Assembly (NCBI GenBank): GCA_003142185.1
Contig: PLOR01000047.1
Location: forward strand, 1 to 36,853
DNA length: 36,853 nucleotides
Direction: 5' to 3'
Origin: Bryobacterales bacterium
Lineage (GTDB): Bacteria; Acidobacteriota; Terriglobia; Bryobacterales; Bryobacteraceae
The translations under genes and the position numbers were made by a program. Below, in pieces: positions 13,105 through 36,805 of the stretch; position 1 is the first letter of the stretch, and the number at the start of each line of letters is the position of its first letter. The notes beneath the pieces were generated by a model, which was not told the DNA's origin, made no database searches, and saw only the letters and a list, made by a program, of their open reading frames with translations.

Positions 13105-14115
13105 CTACACCCGGTTCGCGTAGTTGCGCTCGTAATAGTTCCGATACTCTCCGCTGCGCACGCGGGCGACCCATGGGGCGTTGGCGCGATACCACTCGAT
13201 GGTGCGGGCGAGGCCGGTTTCAAAATCCACCTTCGGCCGCCAACCGGTTTCGCGCAGGATTTTTTCGCTCGATAGCGCATAGCGGCGGTCGTGTCCGGGC
13301 CGGTCCTTCACGTATTGAATCAGGCTCTCCGGCTTGCCGGCCAGCGCCAGCAGCTTGTGGATCACGTCCAGATTGGGCAGCGAGCGGTTGCCGCCGATGT
13401 TGTAGATCTCGCCCGCGCGCCCTTTGTCGAGCACCGCCAGAATGCCGCGGCAATGATCGTCCACATACAGCCAGTCGCGAATCTGCATGCCATCGCCGTA
13501 CACCGGCAGCGGCCGGTCTTCGAGAGCGTTGGCGATCATTAGCGGAATCAGCTTTTCGGGGAACTGGTAGGGGCCGTAGTTGTTGGAGGCGCGCGTCACC
13601 ACCACCGGCATGCGGAAGGTGACGAAGTAGGAGAGCGCCAGCATATCCGAGCCCGCTTTCGATGCCGAATACGGGCTGCTCGGCTGGAGCGGAAATTTTT
13701 CGGTGGCTTCCTCCGGCGCCGGGAGGCTGCCATACACTTCATCGGTCGAGACGTGCACGAAGCGCGGAACGTTGTTCAGGCGCGCGGCTTCGAGGAGGCG
13801 GAAAGTGCCCAGGAGATTGGTTTGGATCACCGGCTCGGGCGAAATGATGCTGCGGTCGACGTGCGATTCGGCGGCGAAATGCACAATGGCGTCCGGCTTG
13901 GTTTCGGCGACCAGCGCGCCAACCGCCGCCTGGTCCGCGATATCGCCCTGCACGAACCGGTAGCGGCCGCTCGATTCCACCTCGGCCAGGTTCTCGAGGT
14001 TGCCGGCGTAGGTCAGCTTATCCAGATTGACGACTTCCCAGCCGGTCTCCGCCATCACCAGGCGCACGAATGCCGAGCCGATGAAACCCGCGCCGCCGGT
14101 AACCAGGATCTTCAT
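13105..14115 (-). CDS. rfbB: dTDP-glucose 4,6-dehydratase
   Basis: The product has 336 residues from the ATG at 14115 (MKILVTGGAGFIGSAFVRL). It has an extended SDR with NAD-binding GGAGFIG (7-13), the catalytic STDEVYG segment (T124, D125, E126) and Y149-x3-K153. It converts dTDP-glucose to dTDP-4-keto-6-deoxyglucose. The start lies 7 bp after the rfbC stop, and the longer frame to 14190 would overlap rfbC. It belongs to an rfbA-rfbC-rfbB operon. Confidence 0.95.
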   Translation of the reverse strand: MKILVTGGAGFIGSAFVRLVMAETGWEVVNLDKLTYAGNLENLAEVESSGRYRFVQGDIADQAAVGALVAETKPDAIVHFAAESHVDRSIISPEPVIQTNLLGTFRLLEAARLNNVPRFVHVSTDEVYGSLPAPEEATEKFPLQPSSPYSASKAGSDMLALSYFVTFRMPVVVTRASNNYGPYQFPEKLIPLMIANALEDRPLPVYGDGMQIRDWLYVDDHCRGILAVLDKGRAGEIYNIGGNRSLPNLDVIHKLLALAGKPESLIQYVKDRPGHDRRYALSSEKILRETGWRPKVDFETGLARTIEWYRANAPWVARVRSGEYRNYYERNYANRV

Positions 14116-14122
14116 CGGCGTC

Positions 14123-14704
14123 TCACTTGTGCTGGGTTTCCCAATCGTAGTGGATACCGGGGTCGTCGAAAACGACGCGGCCTTCGTCACTCGGATCGTA
14201 GAAGCGGTCGGTCATGTAAATCAGCATGGCGCTTTCTTCGCCGATCACTTTATATCCGTGGCCCACGCCGGGCGGAACGAGGATCTGCCAGGGGCGCAGC
14301 GGGCCGACATACATGGTGTTGCGTTTGCCAAAGGTGGGCGAGCCCAAGCGGAAGTCGACCAGCGCCACTTGGAACAACCCCTTTGCCGGCGTCCAGCAAT
14401 CGGTTTGCTTCAGATGATAATGGAACGCCTTGATAGTACCCGCATAGCTGAGCGCGGCAGAAACCTGGCTGCTCTGGGGCGGAAAGGCGTGGGCCAGTCC
14501 CTGACCGAGGCGCTGCACTTCGAGAAAGTAGCCGCGGTCGTCCGGGTGCACCGCCAGGCGGGCAATCTCAACGCCCGCGATGCGTTCCGCCGAATCGATA
14601 GCGCCGATCAGCGCGCCGATTCCCTTGGGACATTGCGGAACCGCCAGTTCCAAGCCGCCGAGCGAAGCCAGAGGCCGCGCCGGCGCCGGTGTTTCTTGCG
14701 CCAT
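14123..14704 (-). CDS. rfbC: dTDP-4-dehydrorhamnose 3,5-epimerase
   Basis: The product has 193 residues. The cupin core has the segment TIKAFHYHLKQTDCW, where His95 aligns with the catalytic base of RmlC (canonical RGLHYQ), and later PPGVGHGYKVI. It epimerises dTDP-4-keto-6-deoxyglucose at C3 and C5. The usual Arg-Gly before the catalytic His is Lys-Ala-Phe here, so a related epimerase specificity is possible. The start overlaps the rfbA stop by 1 bp (TGATG). Confidence 0.88.
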   Translation of the reverse strand: MAQETPAPARPLASLGGLELAVPQCPKGIGALIGAIDSAERIAGVEIARLAVHPDDRGYFLEVQRLGQGLAHAFPPQSSQVSAALSYAGTIKAFHYHLKQTDCWTPAKGLFQVALVDFRLGSPTFGKRNTMYVGPLRPWQILVPPGVGHGYKVIGEESAMLIYMTDRFYDPSDEGRVVFDDPGIHYDWETQHK

Positions 14705-15468
14705 CAGGTTCGCACGGCTCCTTCCTCTCGTTCCTCGACTGCCTTGCCGCCCGTGACGGATTCCTTCACCAGGTTAGCGGCGCGGAGCAGGGAATCGAAG
14801 GTGCCGGCATCGGTCCACCAGCCGGAGAGGAACGAAAAGGTGAGCGAGCCTTCGCGCACGTATGCGTTGTTGACGTCGGTGATCTCGAGTTCGCCGCGGC
14901 CTGAGGGAACCAGGGTCTTGATCTTATCGAACACGCTCGAGTCGTACATGTAAATGCCGGTCACGGCGTAATTCGATTTCGGGTGCGCGGGCTTCTCTTC
15001 GATGCCCGCGATGCGGTCGCCGGCCAGTTCCGCCACGCCGAAGCGCTCGGCATCGGCGACCTCTTTGAGCAGGATGTGGGCGCCGTGCGGCTGGCTGCGG
15101 AAACGATCGGCGGCGGCGCGGACGTTGCCCTGGATGATGTTGTCGCCCAGGATGACACAAATTTTGTGGCCGTCGGCGAAGTGCTCGGCCAGCGCCAGCG
15201 CATCGGCGATGCCACCTTCACCTTCCTGGTACGTGTAATGGATATGCTTCAGCCCGAACTCTTTCCCATTGGCCAGCAGCCGCAAAAAATCCCCCGAGTT
15301 GCGCCCGCCGGTGACGACCATGATGTCCTCGATCCCGGCATCCACCAAGGTCTGGATGGGGTAGTAAATCATGGGCCGGTCGTAGATTGGCAGCAGGTGC
15401 TTGTTGGTGATCTTGGTCAGTGGAAAGAGCCGGCTTCCGGTGCCTCCGGCAAGAACTATGCCTTTCAT
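14704..15468 (-). CDS. rfbA: Glucose-1-phosphate thymidylyltransferase
   Basis: The product has 254 residues from the ATG at 15468 (MKGIVLAGGTGSRLFPLT), the canonical RfbA start. An ATG two codons earlier at 15474 is also possible. The nucleotide-binding GGTGSRLFPLT motif (8-18) and KHLLPIYDRPMIYYP follow. It makes dTDP-glucose from glucose-1-phosphate and dTTP. The length is short for RfbA (about 290), matching the shorter RmlA-like group. It is the first gene of the rfb operon; rfbD is absent from the window. Confidence 0.93.
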   Translation of the reverse strand: MKGIVLAGGTGSRLFPLTKITNKHLLPIYDRPMIYYPIQTLVDAGIEDIMVVTGGRNSGDFLRLLANGKEFGLKHIHYTYQEGEGGIADALALAEHFADGHKICVILGDNIIQGNVRAAADRFRSQPHGAHILLKEVADAERFGVAELAGDRIAGIEEKPAHPKSNYAVTGIYMYDSSVFDKIKTLVPSGRGELEITDVNNAYVREGSLTFSFLSGWWTDAGTFDSLLRAANLVKESVTGGKAVEEREEGAVRT

Positions 15469-15543
15469 CAGCATCCATCATAGCAGGGGAGAGGTTCGAT
15501 GCAAGCTGGAGGGGTGCGGGTGCCAGCCCGAGTGCAGCGGCGC

Positions 15544-29267: not shown

Positions 29268-29678
29268 TTACATGTGGTACAGCATGAAGTAGACCACCAC
29301 GCCGGTCACGCTCACGTATAGCCAGATGGGCAGGGTCCAGCGCGCGATTCTTCGGTGGGCATCGTAGCGGCCGGCGAGGCTGCGGCGCAGCGTGATAATC
29401 GCCAGCACCGGAACCGCGGCGGCCAGCACCGTGTGCGTGCCCAGTATGCTTAGATAGATGGCGCGCAGCGGTCCGGCGTGTTGAAATCGCACACTCCCGA
29501 CCTGCACGTGATAAACGATGTAGCAAACCAGAAACGTGCAGGAGACGACGAACGCGGCCGTCATCACCCGCCGGTGGGTTTCCCTCCGCTTACGCCGGAT
29601 CAGCAGGTAACCCCACACCAGCAGAATGGCGGCGCTGGCGTTCAAGAAGGCGTTGATCGAAGGAAGAATTGGAGTCAT
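29268..29678 (-). CDS. DUF420 membrane protein (CtaM/YozB-like)
   Basis: The product has 136 residues from the ATG at 29678. Four TM helices carry the family motif TPILPSINAFLNASAAILL near the start and conserved histidines (THRRVMTAAF, YIVYHVQVG, GTHTVLAAAVPVL). DUF420 proteins of the CtaM/YozB type are needed for cytochrome aa3-type oxidase maturation in Firmicutes (background knowledge). The gene is last in a group with ctaB and an ABC transporter, which supports an oxidase-assembly role. The gap after the permease gene is 69 bp. Confidence 0.85.
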   Translation of the reverse strand: MTPILPSINAFLNASAAILLVWGYLLIRRKRRETHRRVMTAAFVVSCTFLVCYIVYHVQVGSVRFQHAGPLRAIYLSILGTHTVLAAAVPVLAIITLRRSLAGRYDAHRRIARWTLPIWLYVSVTGVVVYFMLYHM

Positions 29679-29747
29679 GGTGTTTTGCGTTCTTGGCAGG
29701 CGAAATCCTGAACGGACCCGAAAACCGGGGCGCCTGCCCCACAATCT

Positions 29748-30518
29748 TCACGCCGTGCTGTGCGTGCTCTTCTGCGCGGCCATGATTCCCGAGGCCGCCA
29801 GCAGCACCAACCCGAACGCCAGCGTTACGAGCAGGCTGGCCGCCGCTCCCGGTTGCGCATTCGGCAGCGCCAGCGTGTGATTCAGCAACGCGATCGAATA
29901 CGTCAGCGGGTTGGCCCACATCAGCCACCGCACCCAGCCGTGCGCGGTGGCCATCGGGAACAGCGACCCCGAGACCATCCACATGGGCACCAGCAGCAAA
30001 TTCATAATCGCATGAAAGCCGGCGGTGGATTCCATCCTCCAGGCAATCACGAATCCGAGGCCGGTGAGCGTAAATGAAATCAGCAGAATCGCCAGCGCTA
30101 CCGGAATCAGTTCCAGCACCCCGATGCGGACGCCCGCCAAGGGCGCGAAGCACAGGAAAATCAGCCCCTGAATCCAGGCCAGCGTGGCCGACCCCAAAAT
30201 CTTGCCCAGCACCAAGCTGGTGCGCGGCGCGGGCGAGACCATCATCGATAACAAAAATCCCTCTCGCCGGTCTTCGATGATGGAAATGGTCGAAAAGATG
30301 GCCGAGAACATCACCGTCAACACCAGGGCGCCGGAATAATACCGCGCCAGGTCGTTCGATCCGGAGCCGATCAGCAGCCAGAACACCAGCGGCGACGCGA
30401 CCACGCCCAGCACGCGGCTTTTCTGGCGCCAGAAGCGGACCAGTTCGCGCTGCCACAGCGTGGCGGCAGGCAGAACGAAGCTACTCAATCTGCGCCCCCG
30501 TTTCGCGCACGAAGACAT
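29748..30518 (-). CDS. ABC-2 type transporter permease
   Basis: The product has 256 residues from the ATG at 30518. It has six TM helices and the ABC-2 pattern (WQRELVRFWRQKSR before TM1; SIIEDRREGFLLSMMVSPAPR in the coupling loop). The start is uncertain. The ATG overlaps the ATPase gene by 38 bp with a weak ribosome site, and a TTG at 30488, after a GGGGG stretch, gives an 8-bp overlap. It partners with the ATPase encoded just upstream. The substrate is unknown; the DrrB/NatB-like family and the ctaB context point to heme or oxidase biogenesis. Confidence 0.87.
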   Translation of the reverse strand: MSSCAKRGRRLSSFVLPAATLWQRELVRFWRQKSRVLGVVASPLVFWLLIGSGSNDLARYYSGALVLTVMFSAIFSTISIIEDRREGFLLSMMVSPAPRTSLVLGKILGSATLAWIQGLIFLCFAPLAGVRIGVLELIPVALAILLISFTLTGLGFVIAWRMESTAGFHAIMNLLLVPMWMVSGSLFPMATAHGWVRWLMWANPLTYSIALLNHTLALPNAQPGAAASLLVTLAFGLVLLAASGIMAAQKSTHSTA

Positions 30519-31389
30519 CTTCGAGGGTCGGCTTGTGCAGGCCCACCGATTGGATCGCTCCGGGAAACGCCTCCACCACTTCGGCGATGAAGCGATGCCC
30601 GTTTTCGATTTCCACGCGCACTTGGCCGTCCACCTGGCTGGCGCGCAATCCGAAGCGCTGCTCGATCGAGCCAGCCAAGGCCTTCGCGTCTTCCGCCTCC
30701 AGCACCACCACGTCGCCGCCGATGCGCGCGCACAGCGCTTGCGGGCTGCCCTCGGTCACAATCTGACCCTGGTGCAGCAGCGCCAGGCGGTTGCAGCGGT
30801 CGGCCTCTTCCAGAACGTGGGTGGTGAGCAGAATCGTCACGCCCTCCTGATCGCGCAGCCGCTCGATGTGTCGCGTCAGGTCGCGCCGCGCGGCAGGATC
30901 GAGGCCGGTCGACGCCTCGTCCATCAGCAGCACCGGCGGGCGGTGCAGCAGCGCCTTGGCGATCTCGACGCGCCGGCGCAGCCCGCCCGAGAGCTTCTCC
31001 ACCACGTCCTTGCGGCGATCCTCCAGGCCCAGTGGCGTCATGGCGTGTTCCATGCGCTCCCGCAACAGCGCGCCCGAGAGCCCGTGCAAATGGCCTTGCG
31101 CGCGCAGGTTCTCTTCCACCGTCAGCGCCTTGTCGAGACTCTGCGTTTGGAACACCACACCCACCTGGCGCCGCACCGCCGCCCGGTCGCGCACCACGTC
31201 GCAGCCGCCAATCACGGCGCGGCCTTCGCTGGGCGCCATCATCGTCGACAGAATGCGGAAGAGCGTGGACTTGCCACCGCCGTTCGGCCCCAACAGGCCG
31301 AAGATTTCGCCTTGCGCCACTTCGAAGGTGACATTGCTCAGGGCCGTGCGCTCGCCGTATCGATGTGTCAGATTCGCAACTTCAATCAC
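30481..31389 (-). CDS. ABC transporter ATP-binding protein (DrrA/NatA-like)
   Basis: The product has 302 residues from a GTG at 31389 whose GTGA overlaps the ctaB stop. Walker A is GPNGGGKST, followed by Q-loop (VGVVFQTQSL), signature LSGGLRRRVEIAK, Walker B VLLMDEASTGLDP and H-loop TTHVLEEAD. All core motifs are intact. A C-terminal extension (about 215-302) ends VETGAQIE-like after PTLEDVFVRETG, the usual end of this family. It energises the downstream permease. Confidence 0.9.
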   Translation of the reverse strand: MIEVANLTHRYGERTALSNVTFEVAQGEIFGLLGPNGGGKSTLFRILSTMMAPSEGRAVIGGCDVVRDRAAVRRQVGVVFQTQSLDKALTVEENLRAQGHLHGLSGALLRERMEHAMTPLGLEDRRKDVVEKLSGGLRRRVEIAKALLHRPPVLLMDEASTGLDPAARRDLTRHIERLRDQEGVTILLTTHVLEEADRCNRLALLHQGQIVTEGSPQALCARIGGDVVVLEAEDAKALAGSIEQRFGLRASQVDGQVRVEIENGHRFIAEVVEAFPGAIQSVGLHKPTLEDVFVRETGAQIE

Positions 31390-32264
31390 AGGCCTGGCCT
31401 GTCGAGGAGCATCAGCCCGTAAAGAAACGGCAGGTACACCACCGAGGTGAGCAGAACGCCGCGCGCGCGCGCCACGGTCCGCTCGCGGGCCACCCGCACG
31501 CCCGCGTACAGGAACCACAAACCGAGCAGCAGCGCTCCCGCCAGGTAGATGCGCCCCGACATTCCCAGCATACCCGGAACCAGGCTGACCGGGATCAGCG
31601 CCAGGCCGAATAGTACGATCTGGCGCGCCGTCGACCGGCCGTCCGGTTCCACCACCGGCAGCATGCGTATGCCGGCGCGCGCGTAATCTTCTTTATACAT
31701 CCAGGCGATCGAATAGAAATGGGGGAACTGCCAGAGGAAGAGGATTGCAAAGAGCACCCAGGAATCCGCCGTCAGCCGTCCCGCCGCGGCCGCGTAGCCG
31801 ATCACCGGCGGCATGGCGCCCGGAATGGCGCCGATGGTGGTGGACCACCAGGTGCGCTGCTTGAGCGGCGTATAGAAGAACAGGTAGCTGGCCAGGGTGA
31901 ATGCGCCGATCCAGGCGGCCAGCGGATTCACTCCCGCCCACAGATCGGCAAATCCCGCCACCGAAAGCGCCACGCCGAAAGCCAGCGCCGGCCCGGAGGC
32001 GAGCCGTCCGGAAGGCAGCGGCCGGTCCGCCGTGCGCCGCATTCGTGCGTCGGCCTCCCGTTCCAGCCACTGGTTGAGCGCAGCGGTGCCGGAGGCAATC
32101 AGCCCAGTTCCGAGCATGGTGTTGAACAATCGCAGCACGCCGACGTGCTGGAGGAATTGGCTCCAGCCGCCCGTCCCGGCAAGTCCAAAAAAGTAGCCGA
32201 TTCCGGTGCTCATCAGAATCAGCCAGGTGATCCGCGGTTTGGTCAGCTCAATGTAATCGCGCAT
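31386..32264 (-). CDS. ctaB: Protoheme IX farnesyltransferase (heme O synthase)
   Basis: The product has 292 residues and belongs to the UbiA-type polyprenyltransferase fold with about nine TM helices. The allylic-diphosphate motif is N64-x3-E68-x3-D72 followed by RRTADRPLPSGR (76-87). The second motif region is HFYSIAWMYKEDYARAGIRML. It farnesylates heme B to heme O for cytochrome oxidases. E68 replaces the usual Asp, a conservative change. It heads the ABC-ATPase/permease/DUF420 group (overlap 4 bp). Confidence 0.93.
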   Translation of the reverse strand: MRDYIELTKPRITWLILMSTGIGYFFGLAGTGGWSQFLQHVGVLRLFNTMLGTGLIASGTAALNQWLEREADARMRRTADRPLPSGRLASGPALAFGVALSVAGFADLWAGVNPLAAWIGAFTLASYLFFYTPLKQRTWWSTTIGAIPGAMPPVIGYAAAAGRLTADSWVLFAILFLWQFPHFYSIAWMYKEDYARAGIRMLPVVEPDGRSTARQIVLFGLALIPVSLVPGMLGMSGRIYLAGALLLGLWFLYAGVRVARERTVARARGVLLTSVVYLPFLYGLMLLDRPGL

Positions 32265-32800: not shown

Positions 32801-34471
32801 TCATGTGCGGCAAACCGCTTCATCTTCCAGGGTAGTCGCGTTCCTTGGCATAACGTCGGCGGCCGCTTTGTGGCCCGTGCCACACCCCGCGGCCGCGGCA
32901 GCCTCCAGCGCGGCAAGGATGGTTTGCTGGTACTGCGCGACAAAGGCATTCCGCATACTCAAGAGTTGCTCACTGAAGCCCTTGCTATCTGCCTGAACTT
33001 TTGCGGAAGAAGGAGTTCGACCCAGATCTCGCTCAAAGATCTGGCAGACTTTCCCGGCCAAATCGAGGAGGTACTCGTTGCAGCGCCGCGTAATGGAACG
33101 GAGAGACTTCTCGTATTCCTGTAACCCGGCGATTGGCGGGCATAGCCTCCGCAGCACCCAATACTCGTGCCAGGCGAAGGTAAGTTGGCTCGCCAAAGCG
33201 TCCGAGCCATTCATCCAGTGGGCTACCAGGACGTTCAGCGCCTCAAAGCATGAATTAAGGCGTGGGTCCAGGAAATCATAGTCGGGGTTATGAACGCTGC
33301 CGCGCAACCGGCCTTCCCGGGCTAATTGCTCTTCGATTGGCGTCGCAGCGTAGGGAAGCATGCGGCAAAATACGGCCGGCACACCGCCGTCTGCAGTGAT
33401 CTGCTTCAGGTAAACCGTGTTCTCCCTCACGGAATCGAAGGAGCTCGAGGGATCGAAGAGCATGAAGCCATAGGTAAAGCACAGGTCCAGGTGCTGGAGA
33501 ATGCGTACGGCTCGGAGGCTGTCATCGAGACTCAGTTGCTTGTTCAGCGCACGCAATCCGGTCTCATTGCCGGACTCGATGCCCAAGTAAACCATATAAA
33601 GGCCGGCATCTCGCAGACGCGCGAACAACTCCGGCTCCACTTCGTCAGAGCGGCAACTGATTTTCCAGATCACCTTTCCGTAGAGCCCTTGTTCCCTGAG
33701 CGAATCGATAAACCGCGTTACCCAGCGTCTCCCGAACGCGCCCCAAACCGGAAAGTCGTCATCCTGGAACAGAAAGATAGATACTCCGCTCTCTTCATAC
33801 AGCGCTTTCATCTCCTGCACAACTCTCGCTGGGTTTCGGGTGCGGACCTTTTTGCCGGGTACCTGTCCGTAAAACTGGCGGATGGAGCAGAACGAACAAT
33901 CGCGGCAACAACCGCGGCTCGCAAGAATCGGACTGGCCCTCCTCCCTAATATCTGCAAGGACGACTCCAGCGGGCGTGCGGGAAAAGGAAGGTCGTCCAA
34001 GTCGGCGATCAGCGGTCGTGGCGCGTTGGTGATGCACCTGTCGCCATCGCGATAGGCAACCCCCGCCACGTCATGCCATTCCCGGCCCTCCGCTAACCGC
34101 TGCACTAACTCCGCCAACGTAATCTCGCCTTCGAACCGAACTACGCTGTCGAGTTCCGGTACATCCCGCAATACCTGTTCATACCGAAGACTGGGGTAGT
34201 GTCCGCCGGTACAGAAGTGACACGCGATGCCGTTGTTCCGGAGGTAGACTGCCAGAGCGCGAAACTGCGGCACATAGTATTGGAAGATCAGCGAAAACCC
34301 AACCAATACCGGATTCGCAGATCGGATCGAGTCGAGGATTGACTCGCGTCTCTCGCGGAAGTCCAAAATGCGAACTGCGAAGCCGCGCTGGAGCAGCATC
34401 GCAGCCACGTACCCTACTCCAAGATTCCCCTGCTCCTGAAACCCGATGAGGATTACATTCGGAAGGAACAT
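32801..34471 (-). CDS. B12-binding-type radical SAM protein
   Basis: The product has 556 residues from the ATG at 34471, with GGAGGT about 6 nt upstream. Residues 1-130 are a B12-binding-type Rossmann domain (LIGFQEQGNLGVGYVAAMLL; GGHYPSLRYEQVL). The radical SAM core has C188-x3-C192-x2-C195 (SRGCCRDCSFCS) and the later segments LFQDDDFPV and VYLGIESGNETGL. Residues ~400-556 form a helical extension I do not recognise. Such enzymes methylate or rearrange unactivated carbons in peptides, lipids or antibiotics. The gene lies 42 bp after a 71-residue peptide gene on the same strand, so peptide modification is the leading idea, not a proven function. Confidence 0.9.
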   Translation of the reverse strand: MFLPNVILIGFQEQGNLGVGYVAAMLLQRGFAVRILDFRERRESILDSIRSANPVLVGFSLIFQYYVPQFRALAVYLRNNGIACHFCTGGHYPSLRYEQVLRDVPELDSVVRFEGEITLAELVQRLAEGREWHDVAGVAYRDGDRCITNAPRPLIADLDDLPFPARPLESSLQILGRRASPILASRGCCRDCSFCSIRQFYGQVPGKKVRTRNPARVVQEMKALYEESGVSIFLFQDDDFPVWGAFGRRWVTRFIDSLREQGLYGKVIWKISCRSDEVEPELFARLRDAGLYMVYLGIESGNETGLRALNKQLSLDDSLRAVRILQHLDLCFTYGFMLFDPSSSFDSVRENTVYLKQITADGGVPAVFCRMLPYAATPIEEQLAREGRLRGSVHNPDYDFLDPRLNSCFEALNVLVAHWMNGSDALASQLTFAWHEYWVLRRLCPPIAGLQEYEKSLRSITRRCNEYLLDLAGKVCQIFERDLGRTPSSAKVQADSKGFSEQLLSMRNAFVAQYQQTILAALEAAAAAGCGTGHKAAADVMPRNATTLEDEAVCRT

Positions 34472-34513
34472 GACCTACCTCCGGAACAGCCGCCGTCAAA
34501 CCAAACCAAGGGG

Positions 34514-34729
34514 CTATTTGCCCTGCGCCCCCTTGACGATCGCCAGCGCCTGCGTATTAGCTGTAAGATGGGCTTGCAGGACGGCTTGATTGAGCTGTAG
34601 CCCCACCACAGCCAGGCTGACCAGTTGACTCTTTTCCAGTTGGTCAACCAGCCAAGGCGCGATTGGGTCTCCAGGCGGCCATGGCCTAAAAACAAACGGG
34701 TGCGGAAGACCTTCTCCGATTTCTGGCAT
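34514..34729 (-). CDS. Small peptide gene upstream of radical SAM enzyme
   Basis: The product has 71 residues (MPEIGEGLPHPFVFRPWPPG at the start). AAGGAG sits 8 nt before the ATG at 34729; the in-frame ATG at 34765 lacks such a site. A Pro/Phe/Trp-rich N-terminal third (PHPFVFRPWPPGDPIAPWL) is followed by an amphipathic, Leu/Val/Gln-rich helix (SLAVVGLQLNQAVLQAHL) and a short Lys tail. It contains no Cys and no signal peptide. I know no family match. Position, size and ribosome site suggest a radical SAM substrate peptide, but a small accessory protein is equally possible. Confidence 0.7.
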   Translation of the reverse strand: MPEIGEGLPHPFVFRPWPPGDPIAPWLVDQLEKSQLVSLAVVGLQLNQAVLQAHLTANTQALAIVKGAQGK

Positions 34730-34818
34730 AGCGATCTCTCCTTCTGGGTCTGTGCGGATTGCCACTCAGGGCATCCTCACGAGAAGAGTACACCCATGTC
34801 CGACGAAATCAAATAAGA

Positions 34819-34838
34819 ATCTAAGGTTCTGATCTAAG
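34819..34838. promoter_or_regulatory. Direct repeat ATCTAAG upstream of the peptide gene
   Basis: The word occurs at 34819-34825 and 34832-34838 (period 13) in the AT-rich 138-bp gap between the receptor gene and the peptide gene. It may be a regulator site. No convincing -35/-10 pair is visible. Confidence 0.3.
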
Positions 34839-34867
34839 AAATGTACTTTTTCGAACCAACTCAGCTC

Positions 34868-36685
34868 TTATTTCCGCCGCACCAGCAGTTCCACGCCGGC
34901 CACAATGGTGCGGCCGGGCATCGGCACGCCTAAGATCTCCTGATAACTGGTGTTAGTTAGGTTCGAAACTTGTAAGAACGGATGGACTTTGCCGGCGGCA
35001 TACGCGGCGTAGATATCCCAGAGAGCGTACGGGGAAAGACCGCGCCGATTCAGCGCGCCTACGCGGGTGCGCAGCATCCAGCGCTCGCCGAACATGGCTT
35101 GCCATGCGGCCACGCCGGAGTCGGCCGGGTAATTGAAGCTGTACTTGGTGTAAGTGCCGGGTATGGTGTCTTGCGTTCCGATCAGCCAGTCATAGTGTAC
35201 GTCGAGCGTTTGCGAACGAGTGAGTGCGAAGTGCAGACCGCTTTCGACGCCGGTGAATCGCAGTTGGTCGATGTTCAACGCCTGCCAGGGAGCGTTCACA
35301 TCGGTGCGGTAATAATCGATGCCGTCGTGCACCTGCCGGTTGAACACTGTCATATCGCCGCGCACGCGGGAGCTGGGCTGCCAATCGGCGCCGGCTTCGT
35401 AGGTCCAGGCGCTTTCCGGTTTCAGGTTGGGATTGCCGAAGTCACTGGGGTCGGAGTAATACAGCTCGGTATAACTGGGTACGCGAAAAGCGCGGCTCGC
35501 CGAACCGCGGAATTTGAACCGCGGATTGACCCAGACGCCGCCGGCGATGGTGGGGGTCATCGTCGCCGAAAGGTTGCGCCAGATTTCCTCCCGCGCAGAT
35601 ACGGAGAGCGAGAACCGCCGCAGCGCGCGGAAGTCGGCCGCCGCGTAGGCCGAGGCGCGACTGCGCGCGTGCGTCCCCAGATTGTTGCTCACGATGGATT
35701 CGTGAAGGCCTTCCACGCCGTAAGAGATGGTGATGGCGCGCGCCGGCGTTTCCGTGCGGCGCAACGCGCCCTGGTAGCTTTCATCGGCATGGTGGTTGGT
35801 GTAGATTTCGGGATCGTCGCGGAACAGAACGAACAGATCGCTGTGACGGCGCCAGGCGAAGCTCACCTCGGTTTTCTTGCCCAACATTTGCCGGCCACCG
35901 ATCCACCAGGTCTTGGTGTCCTCCCAGGAAGGATACGGTCCGTAATAGTCGTTGGCGCCGAAGGGTTTGTCCATATACGCCATCGTCAAATCGGCCGGGC
36001 CCCAGCCGGTGACGATGTGAGTGCTCGATGCGAAGTTCAGGTTGCGGTAATCGCGGTCCGGCATGAAGCCGGTGGAAAAATCGCGCGCGAAACTGAGCTG
36101 CTCGCTAACTGGCCCGAACGTGTCCGAAATCGACGCGCGCTGCTGGTTGATGCCGTCGTTGCCCACGGCGGTGCGCAGGCGCAGTTCCAGATCCTCCGGT
36201 GGCGCCGTGATGATGTTGATCACGCCGCCGATCGCATCTGAGCCATACAGCGTGGAGCCGGAGCCGCGCAGCACTTCGACCTGCTCGATCATATCGAGCG
36301 GCACCGGGATATCCATGTCGTGGTGGCCTGTTTGCGCGTCGTTGAGGCGCTGGCCGTCGAGCAGCACCAGCGTCTCGGCGAACGTGCCGCCGCGTATCGA
36401 AAGGTCGGTCTGTACGCCATTGGGAGCGCGTTCCTGAAGGTCGAGCGCGGGATCGGTACGCAGCAGGTCCTCGAGCGCGTTGAGCACCAGGCCGATCGAG
36501 CGCGCCGGCAGCAGCGTGATGGCGCGGTCCATCTCATCGAGCGAGAGAGGCTCGAAGGTGCCCGTTACCACCACGGTTTCATGCTGCGCGGCGGGCACAG
36601 GCTGGGCCGGCGGTTGCGGCGCAGCAGGCTGCTGGGCAACAACGGGGAAGGCCAGAAGGAATATCGAAAGAAACGAGGAGCGCAA
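34868..36685 (-). CDS. TonB-dependent receptor, BtuB-like
   Basis: The product has 605 residues if the TTG at 36685 is used. It is chosen because it starts a clean signal peptide (LRSSFLSIFLLAFPVVAQ); the frame is open upstream with another TTG at 36793 and no ATG or GTG between. A TonB-box-like HETVVVTGTF precedes the plug (SIRGGTFAETLVLLDGQRLN, VEVLRGSGSTLYGSDAIGGV). A 22-strand-type barrel follows (FRGSASRAFRVPSYTELYYS). The YGSDAIGGVINII pattern resembles BtuB, the cobalamin receptor, but other iron or sugar receptors share it. It is upstream of the peptide and radical SAM genes on the same strand. Confidence 0.85.
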   Translation of the reverse strand: MRSSFLSIFLLAFPVVAQQPAAPQPPAQPVPAAQHETVVVTGTFEPLSLDEMDRAITLLPARSIGLVLNALEDLLRTDPALDLQERAPNGVQTDLSIRGGTFAETLVLLDGQRLNDAQTGHHDMDIPVPLDMIEQVEVLRGSGSTLYGSDAIGGVINIITAPPEDLELRLRTAVGNDGINQQRASISDTFGPVSEQLSFARDFSTGFMPDRDYRNLNFASSTHIVTGWGPADLTMAYMDKPFGANDYYGPYPSWEDTKTWWIGGRQMLGKKTEVSFAWRRHSDLFVLFRDDPEIYTNHHADESYQGALRRTETPARAITISYGVEGLHESIVSNNLGTHARSRASAYAAADFRALRRFSLSVSAREEIWRNLSATMTPTIAGGVWVNPRFKFRGSASRAFRVPSYTELYYSDPSDFGNPNLKPESAWTYEAGADWQPSSRVRGDMTVFNRQVHDGIDYYRTDVNAPWQALNIDQLRFTGVESGLHFALTRSQTLDVHYDWLIGTQDTIPGTYTKYSFNYPADSGVAAWQAMFGERWMLRTRVGALNRRGLSPYALWDIYAAYAAGKVHPFLQVSNLTNTSYQEILGVPMPGRTIVAGVELLVRRK

Positions 36686-36805
36686 TTCTTTATTGTACTG
36701 GGCGCGAGGCGTGGGCTTTTCCAGCTTAGCCTGGATTCCGAAGTCAGCTTCGGCGAAGTTGCATTTCCACGGCGGAAGACCAAGGAAAAGCAAGTCTTGT
36801 ATCAG

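Follow-up and report, generated by a model that had tools for sequence, protein, structure and literature searches.

The window analysed here, a 36,853-nucleotide stretch from a Bryobacterales bacterium (contig PLOR01000047.1, assembly GCA_003142185.1), contains on its minus strand a gene for a peptide of 71 amino acids (aa) without cysteine and, after a gap of 42 nt, a gene for a B12-binding radical S-adenosylmethionine (SAM) enzyme of 556 aa. Judged from sequence, the pair apparently represents an undescribed class of modified peptides, with the peptide very probably serving as the enzyme's substrate for chemical modification. The arrangement described in the first-pass annotation, which did not state the strand, was confirmed: a short gene with the ribosome-binding site AAGGAG, 8 nt before its ATG, and the radical SAM gene with GGAGGT, 5 nt before its ATG. 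An alternative in-frame GTG start would give a peptide of 83 aa, but the ATG is preferred because it has a ribosome-binding site. The features of the locus are as follows.

34514-34729, minus strand: gene for the 71-aa peptide, proposed substrate, with a flexible head and then an amphipathic helix (homologues, dN/dS, ribosome-binding site, AlphaFold2 model)
34652-34672, minus strand: codons for peptide residues 20-26, GDPIAPW, the copy of the Asp-Pro head motif (alignment A2, motif counts)
34523-34633, minus strand: codons for peptide residues 33-69, long helix, proposed docking element (AlphaFold2 model)
34738-34743, minus strand: ribosome-binding site AAGGAG of the peptide gene (sequence)
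32801-34471, minus strand: gene for the 556-aa B12-binding radical SAM enzyme (Pfam domains, AlphaFold2, fold matches)
34477-34482, minus strand: ribosome-binding site GGAGGT of the enzyme gene (sequence)
34103-34426, minus strand: B12-binding domain, enzyme residues 16-123 (PF02310)
33461-33922, minus strand: radical SAM domain, enzyme residues 184-337 (PF04055)
33887-33910, minus strand: C188-x3-C192-x2-C195, iron-sulphur cluster motif (invariant in alignments A1 and A3)
32885-33265, minus strand: C-terminal all-helical part, enzyme residues 403-529 (AlphaFold2 model)
34730-34860, minus strand: conserved upstream stretch travelling with the two genes, probable promoter region (DNA match to the related locus L045)

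Two Pfam domains scored above their cut-offs in the enzyme, B12-binding (PF02310, 62.5 bits) and Radical_SAM (PF04055, 61.6 bits), and the cysteines of the CxxxCxxC motif were invariant in a 59-row enzyme alignment; the N-terminal B12-binding-type domain and the C-x3-C-x2-C motif claimed earlier thus both stand. The AlphaFold2 model, made with 59 sequences (predicted local distance difference test, pLDDT, 92.6; predicted template modelling score, pTM, 0.91), matched best the fold of OxsB (5ul4; Z 24.6 over 476 residues, root-mean-square deviation 4.3), followed by AprD4 (Z 24.3), MgmA (23.9) and TsrM (22.9); OxsB was also the top match by sequence profile (E 3e-27). By its domains, cluster motif and predicted fold, the enzyme belongs to the broad group of B12-binding radical SAM enzymes. 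Its last ~155 residues, previously listed as unassigned, turned out to be part of this fold, with residues 403-529 confidently predicted as all-helical and residues 531-556 at pLDDT under 50. A novel C-terminal domain was not supported, the region being helical and inside the range aligned to solved relatives (whole-enzyme comparisons only).

The best NCBIfam scores of the enzyme, all far below cut-off, were for BchE (TIGR02026; 129 bits vs 481.35), HpnR (107.8 bits) and ApyD (NF050148; 105.3 bits vs 750); TIGR03975, the radical SAM C-methyltransferase family for maturation of ribosomally synthesized and post-translationally modified peptides (RiPPs), scored 71 bits vs 281.85. BchE gave the best family score and OxsB, MgmA and TsrM were among the best folds, but these enzymes, together with HpnR and HpnJ, use porphyrin, lipid, nucleotide, amino-acid or large-protein substrates, and we know of no paired small peptide for any of them. 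Pfam returned no PqqD-type RiPP recognition element (RRE) in the enzyme at E up to 1, a search that can miss such elements, many of which escape Pfam.

The peptide had no match in Pfam or NCBIfam at E up to 1, and 30 related peptides, compared at E up to 0.1, gave only four isolated single-member matches (E 0.04-0.09), with no nitrile-hydratase-like or Nif11-like leader family among them. A known Pfam or NCBIfam family, including the well-known unrelated one that had been envisaged as an alternative, was therefore rejected. The relatives share a layout, a head around Asp-Pro (often WDPVPPW) and then an amphipathic helix, and D21 and P22 alone were nearly invariant among the 30 aligned peptides (A2). 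In the AlphaFold2 model of the window peptide, residues 1-20 are a low-confidence coil (block pLDDT 54 and 58), residues 25-30 a short helix (76) and residues 33-69 a long one (blocks 90-98), in agreement with the head plus amphipathic helix read from the sequence at first. A look for conserved residues at the C-terminus had been suggested; the conserved, repeatable part is the head around Asp-Pro instead, the C-terminus being a helix with, probably, a docking role. Among 47 separate peptides, partly picked by eye, DP.P (the strict form DPxP) occurred in 29, with 41 copies vs a mean of 1.3 and a maximum of 7 in shuffled sequences.

The ratio of nonsynonymous to synonymous substitution rates (dN/dS) of the peptide gene was 0.06-0.69 in five pairs, one of which was nearly saturated at silent sites, and the peptide genes are, on these ratios, under purifying selection. 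Taken with recurrence in many phyla, the ratios indicate that the pair is more than a chance arrangement. Ratios below 1 in all five pairs, the good ribosome-binding site, a protein layout shared by several phyla, archaea among them, and the lack of any Rfam family at gathering scores in the window also leave a negligible probability that the short open reading frame (ORF) is conserved leader DNA of the enzyme gene and not a gene, even though it sits where a 5' leader would and ~130 bp before it are also conserved with L045.

At the scale of the family (200 genomes), the single other genome with a true peptide homologue was G049 (69% identity; the peptide is the same as that of L045), where it likewise lies directly before the enzyme, but in surroundings that differ from the window. 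A single-query peptide search matched 83 of these genomes at E up to 1; all matches other than the window's own and G049 (E 0.007-1) were treated as chance. Among 399 genomes of the class, taken as one and the same sample for both genes, the enzyme was present in 13 (E up to 1e-50) and the peptide (profile A2) in eight, all within the 13 and each directly upstream; seven of the eight peptides are profile seeds or seed-identical copies (G378 is not), so that presence in those seven genomes is by construction and absence from the other 386 is the informative part. Five enzyme-positive genomes gave no peptide match: two have a divergent upstream ORF (L038, L040), one has the enzyme at a contig edge (L042), and two carry a sister type of 33-35% identity (L043, L044), with no clear separate peptide gene and with IDP...PVPIPY or similar in their tails.

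Scanning genome contigs, we found 87 enzyme relatives and kept 80, from Acidobacteriota, Nitrospirota (Nitrospira), Alphaproteobacteria and other Pseudomonadota, Thermodesulfobacteriota (Desulfobacteraceae-type), Bacteroidales, Planctomycetota, Asgard archaea and others. In most loci with enough upstream sequence, the enzyme was preceded by a short ORF that had the expected character and lay on the same strand, and the co-occurrence proposed earlier as a check was borne out, with peptide homologues adjoining related radical SAM genes across phyla. The 30-peptide profile, run against 23,737 six-frame ORFs of 124 loci (which include copies of one another, and in which seed peptides match by construction), gave 50 matches before the first non-upstream one (L018, E 0.096); non-seed matches include L036, L050, L069, L070, L073, L074, L076, L096, L098, L099 and L107. 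In a selection-free count over 52 loci outside Bacteroidales that have 450 nt or more of upstream sequence (three too-short loci left out, a few near-copies kept), DP.P was found in a same-strand upstream ORF in 35 loci, vs 2 on the opposite strand and 3 downstream; a looser motif gave 49, 10 and 7, respectively. The enzyme profile matched seven of 396 genomes of the phylum at E up to 1e-60, namely that of the window, two in which the peptide is clear (L134, L136), one with no convincing upstream peptide (L135) and three resembling other families (L137-L139). One Heimdallarchaeota assembly (L071:2404-2799 and L072) has two enzyme loci; a possible extra peptide copy, located 671 nt ahead of the first enzyme, forms the beginning of a longer open frame. 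A spirochaete relative of 845 aa (L123:1506-4043) has a C-terminus that is ankyrin-repeat-like by eye.

DNA similarity between the window and L045 covered 32808-34466 and 34504-34860 and no other part of the window (E up to 1e-5). The GC content of this segment is ~57.5% in both, vs 63.4% for the whole window and 60.9% for L045. By DNA comparison, the peptide and enzyme genes are a cassette that moves between contexts. Carriage by plasmids was rejected: 17 plasmid records matched and, among the ten matches listed, identity was at most 35%, so these are not close members.

ORF clustering over 80 loci, many of them on short contigs, revealed no leader protease or exporter recurring beside the pair and, outside Bacteroidales, no third gene family recurring beside it across lineages, in agreement with a gene-by-gene view among the loci listed; an ABC ATPase family was present in 11 loci, but it lay on either strand and its distance was scattered (534 to 8345 nt). 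With no protease or exporter standing consistently beside the pair, there is no indication that the product is secreted. The Bacteroidales differ in that a tetratricopeptide-repeat (TPR) family protein ends 251-635 nt before the enzyme, and hence adjoins the peptide, in 15 of 18 loci (family linked by BLAST, three members scanned by Pfam; loci L077-L101 and L116, e.g. L101:7274-9733). In the remaining loci the TPR gene is downstream (L081) or farther upstream (L104), and L112 ends at a contig end. Families with RyR and SpoIIE domains (seven loci) and of SiaC (five loci), each with one member scanned, also recur there, and these neighbours together suggest a signalling role in Bacteroidales.

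Constant pairing without a recurring protease or exporter would equally suit a peptide that serves as a small subunit or adaptor, its helix binding the enzyme and either activating it or presenting it to another substrate, with the peptide itself unmodified. The long helix modelled with high confidence in the C-terminal half, and the TPR protein directly upstream in Bacteroidales, as a partner complex might be, fit such a role. So does the slower evolution of the helix half in the window-L045 pair (dN/dS 0.42 for the remainder vs 1.07 for the head), a pattern not repeated in other pairs. We nevertheless consider this unlikely, since one clade has several copies of the head motif and another carries it on the enzyme, as described below, and repetition of an unfolded part is not what one would expect of a subunit.

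Other traits of these loci recall a toxin-antitoxin or immunity module, with a toxic peptide neutralised by the radical enzyme, or a phage-defence unit: a small gene directly before a larger one, a sporadic distribution with movement between contexts, TPR proteins in Bacteroidales of which some have by eye a start (YD-FISYR) like that of Toll/interleukin-1 receptor (TIR) domains, and a weak PADLOC match of the enzyme to the candidate model PDC-M51A (27.6 bits, E 3e-7), also given by a Bacteroidales relative (26.5 bits, E 6e-7). The PDC-M51A matches span the shared radical SAM region and were therefore taken as superfamily similarity, and six of eight scanned proteins match nothing. A TIR domain was confirmed neither by Pfam (E up to 0.01) nor by PDB sequence search, a pattern picked out 92 stretches of viral contigs, none of which was confirmed as a relative, and fused forms fit poorly. 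We judge such a module very improbable.

The enzymes of one clade (10 rows, support 99) are paired with long peptides, in most of which the unit is repeated. Five DPxP each are spread along ~190 residues, followed by a C-terminal helix, in L096 and L099; L111 has five copies, L095 three and L105 two, the peptides of L106, L107, L109 and L122 have two units each, and L100 has one strict copy. Similar peptides from outside the tree contain six DPxP (L090) or two strict copies out of six DP (L110).

In one myxobacterial order, 25 of 115 genomes searched had an enzyme match at E up to 1e-60, and these relatives carry a C-terminal tail instead of a separate peptide. Tails longer than 60 aa were present in 25 of the 30 loci read (L159-L188), and DP.P occurred in 22 of these 25, with 96 copies vs a mean of 17.4 and a maximum of 29 in 500 composition shuffles; the enzyme bodies contained one copy vs 2.2 expected from shuffles. 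The L180 tail has VVDPVPQDSG six times, with variation. A long helix like that of the peptide was not seen by eye in most of these cis tails. The split and fused distributions are complementary, DP.P being in the tail where a separate peptide gene with it is mostly lacking, and vice versa: among the 28 of L159-L188 with enough upstream DNA, it was in the tail in 20 and in an upstream ORF in two, both spurious-looking, and it appears in the enzyme C-terminus in 2 of the 52 split loci and in 6 of the 7 distant ones from the first scan.

In a tree made by a quick method, with a midpoint root and weak long outgroups, enzymes of the split type (59 rows) were separated from those bearing tails (25 rows), each group having support 98. 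Tails are not one clean gain, because the 25 rows include two that are tail-less and three other relatives. L172 and L174, labelled as fused in the tree, were rejected as such, having no tail and grouping with L137. Many myxobacterial tails end in a conserved stretch that is immunoglobulin-like by eye. Paralogous myxobacterial enzymes (L152, L154, L156, L173, L185, L186) have tails that repeat an EM-AP-kind motif (THMCEMAP, PMEAAP) and not DPxP, possibly a second substrate specificity.

We favour the reading that the two genes travel together as a mobile cassette for modifying a ribosomal peptide; the association of the genes, the selection on the peptide, the conserved motif, its multi-copy and fused forms and the predicted fold make this probable. 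The earlier proposal that the peptide could be a substrate of an unrecognised class gains support from the co-occurrence, the lack of a known family and the multi-copy and enzyme-fused forms. Given multi-copy peptides and fused DPxP tails, the simplest reading is that the Asp-Pro units are the site of enzyme action. The C-terminal amphipathic helix of the peptide would dock on the enzyme and the flexible Asp-Pro head, as its conservation and repetition suggest, would enter the active site, where the enzyme may use cobalamin, SAM and a [4Fe-4S] cluster to attack an unactivated carbon within the Asp-Pro unit or adjacent to it. Judging by the class of enzyme, the likeliest reaction would be addition of a methyl group, for which ApyD, described below, is a precedent. 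Since aromatic residues are few in the fused tails, Trp is less likely to be the target than Asp or Pro, and aromatic residues (W...W) are disfavoured on the same ground. The product would retain the helix and stay in the cell, as the absence of a protease or exporter beside the pair suggests; in the related clade, with substrate repeats fused to the enzyme, the docking helix would be needless.

Several observations weigh against this reading. The window peptide has DPIAPW and its nearest relative DPITPW, that is, DPxxP and not the strict DPxP of many relatives. Twelve Bacteroidales peptides, picked by eye, keep the layout and not the motif (DP in 5 of 12, DP.P in 1 of 12), and their pattern of M followed by D, E, H or N (11 of 12) is inside the shuffle range (maximum 12). 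The seeding of the class-level profile, given above, belongs here too. The fused DPxP motif could be convergent, because the tails are related, some being near-copies, tandem duplication inflates counts and proline-rich repeats are common in lipoprotein tails. Three of the 25 tails contain no DPxP, at least two of these having EM-AP-kind repeats, and all 25 have near their start, between enzyme and repeats, a hydrophobic stretch with Cys, lipoprotein-like by eye with no control run, so the cell compartment of the fused tails is uncertain. These tails also admit a reading in which the split-gene peptides are substrates but the myxobacterial repeats are ordinary proline-rich lipoprotein linkers, uninformative on the reaction; with DP.P in the tails 5.5 times over composition shuffles, and with the fused enzymes having no separate peptide save for the two spurious-looking ORFs, we assign it a low probability. 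As to the chemistry, B12 radical SAM enzymes also perform non-methylating reactions (PMC10635010).

Beyond the cassette itself, we propose only tentatively, and with more doubt than confidence, a wider picture: a self-contained B12 radical SAM peptide modification of an undescribed class with three arrangements, namely a separate peptide with a single Asp-Pro unit, a separate peptide with as many as six DPxP, and a fused form, in which the enzyme would modify its own repeats (up to seven). The product would be a modified small protein retained in the cell or, in myxobacteria, a surface tail behind a lipoprotein-like segment, and the Bacteroidales version would be wired to a TPR, possibly TIR-type, signalling protein.

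Among known systems, PoyB/PoyC and the TIGR03975 enzymes resemble the present one in cofactors, class and, on the reading favoured here, peptide substrates, but its score is below cut-off and its peptides have no known leader family. Proteusin precursors of the PoyB/PoyC type have a nitrile-hydratase-like or Nif11-like leader, and PoyC is reportedly a valine C-beta-methylase. We know of no earlier fused enzyme-substrate arrangement for a radical SAM enzyme, and none appeared among the top matches listed in the literature searches. The nearest architectural parallel is found in borosins, whose modifying enzyme family occurs with the peptide as a separate gene or fused (PMC8429565). Borosin enzymes, however, are SAM-dependent alpha-N-methyltransferases with a different core; in the window enzyme and four fused enzymes, only B12-binding and Radical_SAM were above cut-off and no alpha-N-methyltransferase domain was found. 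ApyD is a B12 radical SAM enzyme that methylates a peptide Tyr at C-beta, the product being aminopyruvatide (PMC10635010). It belongs to the same broad group as the enzyme described here (105 bits) and acts on a ribosomal peptide of its own gene cluster, as is proposed here, but it contains an RRE and its cluster has genes for a cytochrome P450, a multinuclear non-haem iron-dependent oxidative enzyme (MNIO) and a methyltransferase (PMC10635010), whereas here there are two genes only, a head-plus-helix peptide and a score far below the ApyD cut-off.

This peptide-enzyme family did not appear among the matches listed in searches of the open-access full-text literature, which is weak evidence of absence, most subscription papers being outside its scope. 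B12 radical SAM peptide modification is already known; the peptide family, the motif and the apparent fused form would be new. The pair would provide a compact two-gene system for radical chemistry on peptides, across bacteria and Asgard archaea, in which natural one-copy, multi-copy and fused candidate substrates ease the finding of the target motif. Should the fused form prove functional, it would mean that a radical SAM enzyme can bear a substrate of its own, as borosin enzymes do. The system would also extend B12-dependent peptide modification beyond secreted natural products to proteins that seemingly stay with the cell.

As to neighbouring genes, an frr-like gene follows the enzyme gene in all four Litoreibacter/Tabrizicola loci (L107, L109, L121, L122), and a pyrH-like gene is close upstream in L107 and L122, both by eye. 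Within the window, a TonB-dependent receptor gene (34868-36793, same strand) ends 138 bp before the peptide gene and is outside the cassette per the L045 DNA comparison. Downstream, at 29268-32264, are genes for a UbiA-type prenyltransferase (CtaB-like by eye), an ABC transporter pair and DUF420 proteins, resembling an ordinary respiratory-assembly set, and at 13105-15474 the translations, read by eye, include dTDP-sugar-pathway-like genes next to glycosyltransferases.

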